NCBI GenBank assembly: GCA_018667915.1
Contig: JABIRI010000102.1
Coordinates: forward strand, 1 to 40,828
From: Opitutaceae bacterium
Lineage (GTDB): Bacteria; Verrucomicrobiota; Verrucomicrobiia; Opitutales; Opitutaceae
Direction: 5' to 3'
DNA: 40,828 nt
Of this stretch, positions 2,590 through 35,620 are shown piece by piece. Position 1 is the stretch's first letter. The number at the start of each line of letters is the position of its first letter. A program made the position numbers and the translations under genes. The notes beneath the pieces are model-generated. The model had not been told where the DNA came from. It was given only the letters and a program-made list of their open reading frames with translations, and did not search any database.

Positions 2590-2628
2590 GGAAAGTAGCG
2601 AGTAGCGGGCATCCCTCCCCACCGCCCA

Positions 2629-2707
2629 TTCTTTCTCTTTCTCTTTATCCCGATCCTGACCGAGCGCAAATCCGATCATCCCCCACCCTCTCTTACTCGT
2701 TCTCGTT
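2629..2707. repeat. Pyrimidine-rich dispersed repeat, degenerate copy
   Basis: Two C/T-only runs (2629-2650, ending CTCTTTATCC, and 2688-2707, CTCTTACTCGTTCTCGTTC) lie between the dehydrogenase and the UPF0261 gene. The first matches the arm sequence of the hairpin elements at 18.7, 19.5, 22.6 and 26.5 kb. No well-paired purine arm is present here, so this is a half or decayed copy. Confidence 0.5.
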
Positions 2708-2813: not shown

Positions 2814-4049
2814 ATGAATTCAACCATCGCGATTCTAGGAACCTTCGACACCAAAGGCGCCGAGCATACCTTCGTCGCTGAGCAACTACAACGGGACGGG
2901 TTCAAAACCTTGCTCATCGATGTGGGCAGCAAGACCGACCCCGCGATAACCCCCGATATCACTCGGGACGACGTGCTCGCAGCCCTCAACGATCCCGAGG
3001 CCGCCATCATCCTCGCCCGCCAAGACCGCGGGGAATGTGTCACCCTCATGGGGCGAGCCGCCGCGGCGCTCACAACCTCCCTAGTATCCGACGACAAAAT
3101 ACACGGCATCATTTCCCTCGGCGGCGGCGGCGGCACCGCCATTGCCACGGCCGCGATGCGGGCGCTACCATTGGGCTTTCCCAAGCTCATGGTCTCCACC
3201 CTCGCCAGTGGTCAGACCGCGCACTACGTGGGCACCTCGGACATTACGATGATGCCAGCGGTCGTCGACGTCTCCGGGATAAACCGCCTTTCCCGCACCA
3301 TATTTTCCAACGCCGCCGGTGCTATCGCGGGCATGGTTCACGCAGCCGCAACCCGTTCATCCGCCCCAGCCGGTTCCACCGAAAAACCGTTAGTCGTGGC
3401 CAGCATGTTCGGCAATACAACCGCCTGTGTGACCGAATCCAAACGCCTCACGGAAGAAGCAGGCTACGAAGTTTTAGTATTTGCGGCCACCGGCAGCGGC
3501 GGTCGCACCATGGAATCACTCATCGCCAGCGGCATGGTCTCCGGTGCGCTCGACATCACGACAACCGAATGGGCCGACGAGCTGGTCGGCGGAGTCCTGA
3601 CCGCCGGCCCAACCCGACTGGACGCGACCGCCCATGCGGGCATTCCCGCCATTGTCGTCCCCGGCTGCTTAGACATGGTCAATTTCGGCGAGCGTGACCG
3701 CGTGCCCGCCCAATTCTCCGACCGTAATTTCTACGTGCACAACGAACAGGTCACCCTCATGCGCACTACACCTGAGGAGTGCACCGAACTCGGTCGAATT
3801 CTCGCAGAGAAAATCAACCGCTACACCGCCCCCGTTTCGGTGCTTCTGCCGATGGGTGGCATCAGCGTGATCAGTGCCCCCGGTCAGCCCTTCCACGACC
3901 CCGTCGCTGACACCGCGTTGTTCGATTCCTTAAAATCGAACCTACGCGACAACATTCCCGTGATCGAATCCCCGGCCAACATCAACGACCCCACTTTCGC
4001 CCAACTCTGCGCCAAAACGTTGATCGCGAAATTATCAGCCCGAACTTAA
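2814..4049 (+). CDS. UPF0261 / Tm-1-like ATP-binding domain protein
   Basis: The 411-residue length and sequence match the UPF0261 family throughout. The N-terminal domain starts with the family hallmark ILGTFDTKGAEHTFV (residues 7-21) and includes a glycine-rich segment SLGGGGGTAIAT near residues 102-113, followed by the conserved LASGQTAHYVGTSDITMMPAVVD block. The C-terminal domain (about 195-405) includes VVPGCLDMVNFG and the LLPMGGISVI segment. The family contains plant Tm-1, which binds ATP and inhibits viral replication. Bacterial members have no settled function, so the substrate is not claimed here. The ATG at 2814 lies just after the A/T-rich leader and gives a full-length family match. 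No signal peptide, so cytoplasmic. It stands alone between repeat-bearing spacers. Confidence 0.9.
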   Translation: MNSTIAILGTFDTKGAEHTFVAEQLQRDGFKTLLIDVGSKTDPAITPDITRDDVLAALNDPEAAIILARQDRGECVTLMGRAAAALTTSLVSDDKIHGIISLGGGGGTAIATAAMRALPLGFPKLMVSTLASGQTAHYVGTSDITMMPAVVDVSGINRLSRTIFSNAAGAIAGMVHAAATRSSAPAGSTEKPLVVASMFGNTTACVTESKRLTEEAGYEVLVFAATGSGGRTMESLIASGMVSGALDITTTEWADELVGGVLTAGPTRLDATAHAGIPAIVVPGCLDMVNFGERDRVPAQFSDRNFYVHNEQVTLMRTTPEECTELGRILAEKINRYTAPVSVLLPMGGISVISAPGQPFHDPVADTALFDSLKSNLRDNIPVIESPANINDPTFAQLCAKTLIAKLSART

Positions 4050-4228: not shown

Positions 4229-4330
4229 TCTACAGATACGGGGCGATTTTTCATCTCGCCTGCACGATTTACGATTTCAGAGAGTGTAAATTGCGCTGGT
4301 GATTCCTCTGCTGGCGGTTGGCTCGATCGT

Positions 4331-18633: not shown

Positions 18634-18639
18634 CCCCCT

Positions 18640-18739
18640 CTCTCTCTTCTTTATCGATCCCCTCACTCCGACCGGAAACGCGGCTCCGCTGTCAGGGAAG
18701 GATAAAGATAAAGACTAAAGAGAAAGAGCGGCTTCGCCG
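18640..18739. repeat. Hairpin-type pyrimidine/purine repeat element
   Basis: A pyrimidine-rich left arm (18640-18668) and a purine-rich right arm (18700-18728, GGATAAAGATAAAGACTAAAG onward) flank a GC-rich centre with GCGGCTCCGC. The right arm, reversed and complemented, matches 22617-22645 at 27 of 29 positions. A CGGC-TTC-GCCG mini-hairpin (18729-18739) follows. It lies between the TIM-barrel and SGNH genes. Confidence 0.65.
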
Positions 18740-18762
18740 GATTGTCCGCAACGTCCCCCCTC

Positions 18763-19515
18763 ATGAACAAATCCCAGGCTCCCTCTTTCGTCTTCCTTTT
18801 CCTGATGTTCGCCATTTTCACCCACGCCGAAACGGGAGTCGACCTCCCCGGCGAAGCAACCTCCGCAACCCAGGAAGTCCATCCGGCCTATGCTGTCGTC
18901 GTGGACGATCCGGCCCTGCCGCGGGTGTTACTCATCGGAGATTCTATATCCATCGGCTATACCGCGCCGGCCCGCGAAGCGCTGCAGGGAAAAGTGAATC
19001 TACACCGTATTTCCGGAAACGGTGGCGACACCCAACGTGGACTGGCCAACCTCTCCAAATGGCTCGCCGTCGAAAACGGTTCATGGGCTCTGATTCACTT
19101 CAACTGGGGCTTGTGGGACCTCTGCTACCGCAATCCCGAAGCCCAAACTCAAGGCAATCGCGACAAAGTGCACGGAACCCTGACATCCACTCCTGCGGTG
19201 TATGCCGCCAACTTGGAGACCCTGGTGCGACAGCTGCAAGAAACGGGGGCAAAACTTCTCTTCGCCACCACCACCCCTGTTCCCGAAGGCGAAATCGGCC
19301 GCATCATCGGCGATGACATCATCTATAATCGGACCGCCCGCGAGGTAATGCAGCGCCATAACATTCCGGTAAATGACCTTCACGCCATCATGGCCGGAAG
19401 AATGGCCGAATTCGCCCGCGCCCCCGGTGACGTTCACTTCACTTCTGAAGGTTCGGAACTCCTCGGTAAGGTCGTCGCCGAAGCCATCGAGGACGCATTG
19501 GCTAGTTCACCCTAA
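18763..19515 (+). CDS. SGNH/GDSL hydrolase, exported
   Basis: 250 residues from the ATG at 18763; an upstream in-frame TTG at 18742 would add seven residues and is less likely. The signal peptide is SFVFLFLMFAIFTHA. The nucleophile block RVLLIGDSISIGYTAPAREAL places Ser61 in a canonical GDS motif. Block II is RISGNGGDTQRGLANL (Gly/Asn oxyanion region), block III-like text is IHFNWGLWDLCYRN, and the C-terminal catalytic pair lies in PGDVHFTSEGSELLGK. The overall pattern resembles carbohydrate esterases and acetylxylan-type SGNH proteins in PVC genomes. The substrate is not known. It converges on the sulfatase gene across the strongest hairpin element in the window. Confidence 0.88.
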   Translation: MNKSQAPSFVFLFLMFAIFTHAETGVDLPGEATSATQEVHPAYAVVVDDPALPRVLLIGDSISIGYTAPAREALQGKVNLHRISGNGGDTQRGLANLSKWLAVENGSWALIHFNWGLWDLCYRNPEAQTQGNRDKVHGTLTSTPAVYAANLETLVRQLQETGAKLLFATTTPVPEGEIGRIIGDDIIYNRTAREVMQRHNIPVNDLHAIMAGRMAEFARAPGDVHFTSEGSELLGKVVAEAIEDALASSP

Positions 19516-19536
19516 ACGGCACCGTCTTCCTCTTCC

Positions 19537-19630
19537 TCTTTCTCATTATTCTTTATCTTTATCCCGAACTCCACCCGGCAGGGCGGCTTCGCCGTCAGAG
19601 AAAGATAACGATAAAGAATAATGAGAAAGA
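19537..19630. repeat. Near-perfect 27-bp inverted repeat hairpin element
   Basis: The left arm 19537-19563 (TCTTTCTCATTATTC then TTTATC repeats) pairs with the right arm 19604-19630 at 26 of 27 positions. The 40-base loop contains a second hairpin CGGC-TTC-GCCG (19584-19594). It sits between the converging SGNH and sulfatase genes and could act as a two-way terminator, although it lacks a terminal U-tract. It is the best-preserved member of a dispersed family. Confidence 0.8.
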
Positions 19631-19662
19631 ACGACTACGCCGCGGGCCAGTTGTGCGCAGAT

Positions 19663-22616: not shown

Positions 22617-22645
22617 TTCTTTCTCCTTAGTCTTTATCTTTATCC
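22617..22645. repeat. Pyrimidine-rich repeat arm (no partner)
   Basis: This 29-base C/T-rich arm matches the complement of the right arm at 18700-18728 at 27 of 29 positions. No complementary arm follows within 60 bases. It lies in the divergent spacer between the sulfatase operon and the serine hydrolase gene. Confidence 0.6.
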
Positions 22646-22707
22646 TAACCGCCCAGAGTAGCTTCCCCCTTCGGAAGTCGATTCACAGAAACTATTCCCT
22701 CCGCATA

Positions 22708-26541: not shown

Positions 26542-26576
26542 CTCTTTCTCTTTACTCATTATCTTTCTCTTTATCC
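26542..26576. repeat. Pyrimidine-rich repeat arm (no partner)
   Basis: A C/T-rich run with ACTCATTATC in its middle and ending CTCTTTATCC resembles the left arm at 19537-19563. It lies in the 281-bp divergent spacer between the permease and the ParB-like gene; no matching purine arm is present. The rest of the spacer shows no clear promoter. Confidence 0.55.
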
Positions 26577-33562: not shown

Positions 33563-33601
33563 ACGAATCCACAGCAACGACGCGCACGGCGACTTTGCCA
33601 T

Positions 33602-33722
33602 CTTCCTCTTTATCATTATTTGTCCGCCGAAGCTCGTTCTCGTTCTCGTTCTCTGACGCCGCAGCCGCCTCACCGATTGGACCGGGGGGGGGATAGAGAT
33701 AAAAAACAAAGAGAAGGAGCAA
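33602..33722. repeat. Degenerate pyrimidine/purine hairpin element with a G9 tract
   Basis: C/T-rich runs (33602-33619 and 33634-33653, TTCTCGTTCTCGTTCTC) are followed by a purine-rich arm (33693-33719, ATAGAGATAAAAAACAAAG onward). The arms pair only loosely. Nine G residues in a row lie at 33684-33692. The element is the centre of a 483-bp gene-free stretch (33419-33901). Confidence 0.5.
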
Positions 33723-35500: not shown

Positions 35501-35598
35501 CAGGTATCAAGTAACAAGAGATGCCCCAAGGGGTCGGGTCGTAGACGTATTGCGACAGCAATTTAGTCACGACCTGATCTCCTTCCCCCAGATGCTGA

Positions 35599-35620
35599 CT
35601 CTTCCTCGTTCTCTTTCTCG
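35599..35620. repeat. Pyrimidine-rich repeat arm
   Basis: CTCTTCCTCGTTCTCTTTCT resembles the second C/T run at 33634-33653 and that at 2688-2707. No paired arm was found. It begins a repeat-rich gene-free stretch reaching to 35971. Confidence 0.4.

Follow-up and report, generated by a model that had tools for sequence, protein, structure and literature searches.

REPINs are REP doublets that form hairpins (PMC8049555, PMC3733652) and, in the part of the first paper drawn on here, they are reported also from genomes without a RAYT (PMC8049555). The intervening sequences (IVSs) of 23S rRNA are described, in the portion of PMC4990558 cited here, as having in Coxiella a stem of 28 bp and, 5' of the S23p ORF, heptameric repeats in variable number; the same text has the stems of rRNA IVSs cut by RNase III and states that the functionality and origin of these sequences remain unclear. 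The protein family concerned (PF05635, the 23S rRNA intervening-sequence protein, IVP/S23) is said in one passage of PMC10053308 to resemble Avd of diversity-generating retroelements, and relatives of IVP are pentamers of four-helix bundles according to the title of a structure paper as cited there.

Here we analysed a stretch of 40,828 nucleotides from an Opitutaceae bacterium (contig JABIRI010000102.1; hereafter the window), in which an initial annotation had noticed a dispersed family of hairpins. Our preferred reading, to which we give a probability of about 0.5, is that these hairpins are ORF-less, REPIN-like members of an inverted-repeat system associated with IVP genes, with mobility that would be mediated by IVP. 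We know of no established function for IVP/S23 genes. As far as the cited descriptions of REPIN-RAYT systems extend (PMC8049555), the likeness lies in a pair of conserved units in inverted orientation around a diverse spacer, an intergenic location and tens of copies; in singlets that can be read as decayed pairs; in one vertically inherited gene, here that for IVP, flanked by element units; and in copies that persist in genomes without the gene (here G003 and G024, in which no cognate IVP was seen). By the same descriptions the systems differ in that the flanked gene here encodes IVP/S23 and not a Y1 tyrosine transposase, and in that the arms are degenerate tandems of 6-7 nt, about 33 nt long. 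GTAG/CGTC REPs are described as 20-40-bp palindromes with a GTAG or CGTC tag at one of their ends. By eye no such end tag was recognised here, and where CGTC occurred, in many copies, it lay inside the spacer modules. Compared with the IVSs of 23S rRNA (in helix 9, 25 or 45), the IVP places found here are not in rRNA (20 loci and the window scanned with Rfam), two arm types also occur ORF-less in tens of copies and, unlike an IVS with its S23 ORF, the hairpins of the window contain no ORF.

Hairpins of the window and their arm family

Both main hairpins (18635-18728 and 19537-19631) have a pyrimidine left arm and a purine right arm, and a third, decayed two-arm element with the same arm order lies at 33594-33718 (Table 1). 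In the second hairpin 26 of 27 positions are paired between 19537-19563 and 19604-19630, so that the annotation was correct on this point, as it was on the nested GGCTTCGCC hairpin. The window has a single inverted repeat of at least 25/27 within 150 nt, that of this hairpin, and its 20 first-order Markov copies have none. RNA folding gave z = -7.0 for 19530-19640, which contains the second hairpin, and only -2.4 for 18636-18732, the first hairpin, in which the left arm is decayed. The agreement of 27 in 29 positions claimed between 18700-18728 (as reverse complement) and 22617-22645 was reproduced exactly. Of the looser copies that had been placed at 33602 and 35599, both are present as weak arms, but the former is one arm of the third two-arm element. 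All seven sites in the window are intergenic, in agreement with the earlier claim, when genes are predicted by codon usage; the genes around the two main elements encode a TIM-barrel protein, an SGNH hydrolase and a sulfatase, and that for a beta-lactamase-fold protein directly follows the arm at 22617. The inner GC-rich hairpin adjoining TCAGAGAA is present in many copies: by eye, the same module stands 5' of the purine arms at 18680 and in L002, L004 and L005, and in G003 a TCAGAGAA-type module also precedes purine arms, but with a different stem. A scan of the window with Rfam gave no match above the gathering cut-off.

Table 1. Arms and modules of the hairpin elements in the window, and copies of the MITE that carries a hairpin in JAIRTK
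Feature	Position	Strand	Details
Left pyrimidine arm, second element	19537..19563	(-)	arm score 47.8; belongs to best two-arm element; string of purine units on minus strand
Right purine arm, second element	19598..19631	(+)	five units GAGAAA-GATAAC-GATAAA-GAATAAT-GAGAAA-GA; arm score 45.6; model 28.2 bits at 19602-19631
Inner GC-rich hairpin and TCAGAGAA	19584..19603	(+)	sequence, by eye
Decayed left arm, first element	18635..18661	(-)	arm score 20.5
Right purine arm, first element	18699..18728	(+)	four units and GA; 31.9 bits, E 6.8e-7
CGGCTTCGCCGG hairpin immediately outside right arm, first element	18729..18740	(+)	sequence
Single arm, neighbouring genes divergent (22527-, 22708+)	22617..22646	(-)	27.9 bits
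Single arm, neighbouring genes divergent (26313-, 26697+)	26542..26571	(-)	24.9 bits
Weak single arm	2623..2649	(-)	arm score 21.6
Decayed left arm, third element	33594..33620	(-)	arm score 22.0
GAGAAC hexad tract, then TGACGCCGCAGCCGCC module, within third element	33633..33653	(-)	exact GAGWAM match; sequence
Decayed right arm, third element	33692..33718	(+)	arm score 32.3
Weak hexad tract between convergent genes	35593..35619	(-)	arm score 19.7
MITE copies (JAIRTK)	L132 3812-4011; L201 1167-1366; L206, L147, L188, L152, L178, L185		

Other repeats were also seen in the window. Imperfect inverted GATTTACG-type arms (74%) at 2779-2813 and 4247-4281 enclose a UPF0261 gene (2814-4049), and an arm type similar to GATTTACG flanks an IVP clade elsewhere. 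Further intergenic repeat families are represented by 5749-5785/33526-33562 and by 4072-4105/33457-33490.

The arm is a degenerate tandem with the consensus (GAKAAM)n-GATAAA-GANNAAA-GAGAAA-GA, in which, numbered over 27 bases, positions 3, 9, 15, 16 and 19 are variable, as they are in weaker partner arms. Allowing up to two mismatches, its 17-base core GATAAAGATAAAGANNA occurs 107 times (55 + 52) in the 4.28-Mb draft genome and the reversed control of the core eight times (5 + 3); the initial annotation had called for a frequency comparison in case the family were only low-complexity sequence. With at most 150 candidates scored per genome, the arm model matched seven of 38 related genomes at E<=0.01 and gave no match at this threshold in the other 31; there were 46 matches in the complete genome G003, 32 in the window's own genome, 27 in G024 (another genus) and 20 in G005. 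A search with the 27-base arm pattern across 84,980 species returned 96 stretches, all 96 with titles naming Opitutus, Opitutaceae, Opitutae or Verrucomicrobia. Among 145 Verrucomicrobiota genomes, hexad tracts of other spelling (GATTAC, GATTAA, GAGTAC) outnumber their reversed control in several and form the same kind of inverted pairs in G130:C127; some other matches resemble coding repeats.

Arm pairing, conservation and placement

After removal of 34 duplicates, 295 non-redundant arms were available, and among these, pairs within 250 nt had the pyrimidine arm before the purine arm in 89 cases and the opposite order in one. The description of a miniature repeat family is thus backed by a fixed arm order as well as by spread throughout a lineage. 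The arm starts of two-arm copies are 46-208 nt apart. Beside strong arms the best opposing arm scored above zero in 158 of 222 cases in the right order and in 5 of 221 in the wrong-order control, which supports the suggestion that single arms are the remains of pairs. Five units were counted in 152 of 224 arms, shorter arms being disfavoured in this count because the arm search model covers four units and GA.

Slippage of hexamers, which would make the family low-complexity sequence, fits the contig-terminal array in L009 (1-76), about 12 copies of pure GAGAAC, which suggests that arms can expand in this way, and the difference in unit number between the orthologues L143 and L208 described below. 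As a full explanation it is refuted, and we consider it hardly credible: the core far outnumbers its reversed control, the inverted order is fixed, five units are the mode and the pattern is confined to one lineage. Low complexity was accordingly ruled out by the reversed control and the fixed order, with slippage retained as a contributor.

The idea that the hairpins are selected for structure was not supported. For 59 two-arm elements (the six MITE-borne copies having been excluded from this covariation test beforehand) mean pairing between arms was 22.61 of 27 positions against 22.50 for arms shuffled within each genome, and 1333 of 5000 shuffles reached the observed value; JAITDF alone (six elements) leaned towards compensation, the observed pairing being reached by 50-75 of 2000 shuffles. 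RNA structure under selection was ruled out by this lack of covariation. Each arm is conserved as a sequence and not as half of a stem, and mismatches concentrate at the degenerate positions, weak arms included.

Five pairs of element-bearing loci lie in a gene neighbourhood common to two species. In the orthologues L016 and L108 the spacer has diverged past alignment except for a 35-nt arm, which differs at three positions, each of them degenerate; in L143 and L208 the arms are kept and the loop has diverged, L208 having two units fewer. The footprint rests mainly on these two pairs because the others are less clean: no alignment was obtained between the elements of L012 and L145, and the arms of L053 and L068 have changed at several positions. 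In view of the conservation in L016/L108 and L143/L208 the arm can therefore look like a sequence-specific site under selection, the pairs being few and the search itself favouring conserved positions. The element was present in both species at all the orthologous sites compared, with no empty site, because the loci had been chosen by presence of the element.

Elements were intergenic in 173 of 192 cases, and ten of the 19 exceptions came from G024, where they may be errors of the gene caller. They were found in excess between convergent genes (35/141 against 26/186 for other spacers) and were deficient between divergent genes (18/141 against 40/186); this pattern is largely due to G003 (15/35 against 2/21 between convergent genes). 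A role as transcription terminator was rejected on this mild preference for 3' ends. The wider alternative of an RNA element (a terminator, an mRNA stabiliser or an RNase III site of the kind found in rRNA IVS stems, which the cited section of PMC4990558 describes as cut by that enzyme) would draw on the same placement, largely that of G003, and on the strong folding of 19530-19640. We regard it as quite improbable, as compensatory changes are lacking, single arms are common and two arms of the window lie between divergent genes.

The arms also show polarity with respect to strand composition. In G003, most of whose sampled loci have a very strong GC skew of about +/-0.25, 34 of 39 elements have the purine strand of their better arm on the G-rich strand, and this persists between convergent genes (15:2). 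For all genomes the corresponding figure is 105 of 140 (105:35, leaving out 27 elements with ties or weak skew and loci with less than 2 kb of flank), but the polarity is absent in G005 (5:5), G024 (6:5) and JAITDF (5:4); by eye, a similar polarity exists for the GGATTTT family. The coding bases of G003 element loci are mostly on the C-rich strand. The skew of G003 switches at about 0.55 and 3.8 Mb, away from dnaA, which lies at 5.61 Mb, and for this reason KOPS-like guide sites were rejected although the polarity in G003 is real. Since these switches gave no position of origin or terminus, the source of the polarity may be insertion bias, selection or mutation bias. Polarity along two GC-skew arcs would be expected if the arms were selected binding sites for chromosome architecture or a nucleoid protein, and the retention of the L016/L108 arm in otherwise diverged surroundings, the G003 ratios and the clustering of mismatches at degenerate positions even in weak arms would agree with this. 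Nevertheless we judge such a site improbable: the sites are few and unevenly spaced (50 groups in G003), 31 of the 38 related genomes have no match at E<=0.01 among the up to 150 candidates scored in each, the polarity fails in three genomes, GC skew by itself may account for it, and a site of this kind needs no inverted pairs.

IVP genes between inverted tandem arms

Arms of the type found in the window directly flank an ORF in L011 (genome G000, arm scores 49.1 and 46.9) and in its orthologue L062 (genome G002, 45.5 and 47.6), with arm starts about 455 nt apart and the ORF between them; both ORFs belong to PF05635 (E 1.3e-19 and 3e-23). The reading frame of the G000 IVP enters the right arm (L011, 1930-1972), which would give it the tail DKDKDNE and a stop codon. 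The IVPs armed with GA hexads, one seen in each of seven genomes of the window's family, form one group in the tree (support 99/90) and represent one orthologous locus, with homologous flanking genes in seven of seven.

For a wider survey 70 distinct PF05635 places were chosen by protein match alone in 12 Verrucomicrobiota genomes, themselves selected for visible hairpins or hexad tracts (these 70 were counted out of 88 PF05635 matches; L011 and L062 were taken apart, L299 was missed by the profile, L394 and L395 were kept separate and 13 were left out). The 350-nt flanks of each place were searched for inverted repeats, L291 being counted once. Such repeats were present around 39 of the 70 places at E<=1e-4 and around 50 at 1e-3, with no arms at 1e-3 at the other 20; the corresponding figures for random places were 0/184 and 6/184, and for non-IVP genes with intergenic flanks 13/221 and 17/221 (small genes 4/71 and larger genes 9/150 at 1e-4, 6 and 11 at 1e-3). 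By eye, eight of the 13 control positives were GA-type arms in loci that had been chosen for holding the repeat. The arms at IVP genes are tandem, with a best period of 7 in 29 of 39 and of 6 in six of 39, and a self-match of 0.71 compared with 0.44 for shuffled and 0.40 for random sequence; their units vary from place to place, and heptad arms are about 4.5 units long. To the extent covered by the cited part of PMC4990558, an IVP/S23 ORF between complementary ends, as at these 39 of 70 places, is also the arrangement of the 23S rRNA IVSs of Coxiella and Leptospira, and the Coxiella IVS, because its S23 ORF stands between complementary ends with heptameric repeats upstream, resembles, by analogy, this architecture set within rRNA. 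An Rfam scan of 20 IVP loci gave no match, which places none of these in rRNA.

Plasmid IVP genes of Cyanobacteria, Azospirillum and Gemmatirosa, 18 of them hand-picked out of 43 records, have such arms in nine cases at 1e-4 and in 12 at 1e-3; tblastn searches with IVP (P0001 against plasmids, L282 against phages) gave no match. Cyanobacteria carry short tandemly repeated repetitive (STRR) heptanucleotides and, compared by description, the tandem tracts that border the IVP genes of L346, L356 and L363 are like these. Some cyanobacterial plasmid IVP genes lie between cas genes (L346, L349 and L352), the order being cas6-IVP-cas4 twice and cas10-IVP-cmr3-type once. In the open-licence PMC literature no description of IVP genes with tandem-unit hairpins was found, which is weak evidence of absence.

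Arm similarity follows protein identity. Over 1214 between-genome pairs of 52 armed IVPs the correlation was r 0.46 (0/2000 permutations), an arm type was shared in ten of ten pairs with at least 70% identity and in six of 1052 pairs below 40%, and the IVPs armed with GA hexads, GATTT and GTAGCG each form one tree group. The match between clade and unit is mostly vertical descent; seven of the ten between-genome pairs at or above 70% identity share flanking genes. When pairs sharing any homologous flank were removed r fell to 0.26 (still 0/2000), carried by a GTAGCG trio and the pair L332/L337, and a unit was shared in four of 15 pairs with at least 60% identity, three of them being one trio. 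Because of this fall the independent evidence for a clade-specific unit, although real, is thin.

Copies of IVP arms also occur away from the gene. The dispersed arms at 3582162 and 4606837 of G001 are identical over 33/33 positions to the right arm of its IVP (5124011), and of five sampled places with IVP-arm hexads in this genome four are two-arm hairpins. With 0-3 mismatches the arm of the G010 IVP was found 15 times in G010 (the IVP arm included), 23 times in G110, 16 in G013, seven in G005 and six in G001, and was absent from G000, G002 and G003; the reversed pattern had no match. The GGATTTT arm of a G003 IVP gave 44 forward and nine reversed matches in G003 and 16 and 0 in G010, with only four in G000 and three in G005. 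Eleven IVP arms were compared with 18-67 loci sampled from their respective genomes, and the nine not of these two types gave 0-1 matches and no inverted pair. On these copy counts ORF-less dispersal is shown for GA hexads and likely for GGATTTT arms. No GA-clade IVP was found in G003 (complete, with about 50 element groups) or in G024 (27 matches), L394 and L395 entering this check by profile search only; the IVP of L395 has arms of another unit.

Mobility and the possible part of IVP

We hold it probable that the hairpins of the window belong to the IVP-associated repeat class; a direct role of IVP in them is tentative and somewhat doubtful. If IVP has such a role, each arm would be a predicted binding site for the protein and the two-arm hairpin would be the unit copied, rarely, via a single-stranded DNA or RNA form, with IVP acting in trans as, by analogy, the RAYT transposase does for REPINs; single arms would be decayed pairs. 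Evidence against a role of IVP in copying comes from G003 and G024, which are rich in hairpins but in which no cognate IVP was seen, although REPINs too are known from genomes that lack a RAYT (PMC8049555), as well as from the 20 IVP places with no arms at 1e-3, the restriction of ORF-less copies to two arm types and the mostly vertical match of clade and unit. As a bolder step, each IVP subunit may read one arm unit, which we propose because relatives of IVP are pentameric (five chains in the solved relative 2gsc) and five is the usual number of units in an arm; the length of heptad arms, about 4.5 units, speaks against it. The most far-reaching version, a trans-acting repeat system in which the effector is an IVP/S23 pentamer and not a transposase, five units (about 33 nt) being read one per subunit, each IVP clade having its own unit 'word', hairpins spreading intergenically in several phyla and the IVSs of 23S rRNA being landings in an rRNA loop, is speculative and in our opinion rather unlikely. 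IVP genes outside rRNA with stem-like tandem-unit flanks, the arms of one clade being dispersed, make the function of IVP testable, and if the preferred reading is true the unexplained tandem-repeat hairpins of Verrucomicrobiota, perhaps also of Cyanobacteria, would gain a partner.

The annotation had also suggested that the family might be mobile. This is supported for one subfamily, in JAIRTK, where the hairpin is a passenger inside a 200-bp MITE that has 31-bp ends (ATACCAATTC..GAATTGGTAT) and is bordered by TA, with 30 full or truncated matches of 93-100% identity in one genome among the matches listed; for the other members we infer mobility. Because the hairpin rides in a MITE with its own ends, the JAIRTK repeats were dropped as proof of hairpin mobility. 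The only recent copies are those within this MITE, and no transposition was seen. When the elements were compared with the MITE definition (TIR and target-site duplication), TA flanks were found only at the 200-bp JAIRTK element, and by eye no tag or target duplication was seen around the hairpins. One element (L130, 2641-2827), a hairpin of the GATAAA type, holds a further hexad hairpin (GAGAACGAGAACGATTACGAG..) within its loop.

These observations bear on the main competing account, in which a REP or MITE family is moved by a transposase (Y1/HUH or DDE) and the arms at IVP genes are ordinary insertions or old neighbourhood, IVP having no role. The REPIN-like shape with two inverted units, variable spacer and singlets would follow from it, as would the hairpin-bearing MITE, the nested hairpin of L130 and the mostly vertical match of clade and unit. 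It offers no account of inverted tandem-unit arms at IVP genes of distant clades and phyla, however, and the hairpins lack a visible tag or target duplication, so that we consider it a serious but unlikely alternative to the IVP-associated system.

Hairpins with GGGGTCAGGTCG..CGACCTGACCCC-like ends lie near elements in L013, L048, L012 and L007; in the part of PMC3733652 cited here, GGGGWSAS motifs are described at the ends of TIRYT transposase elements.
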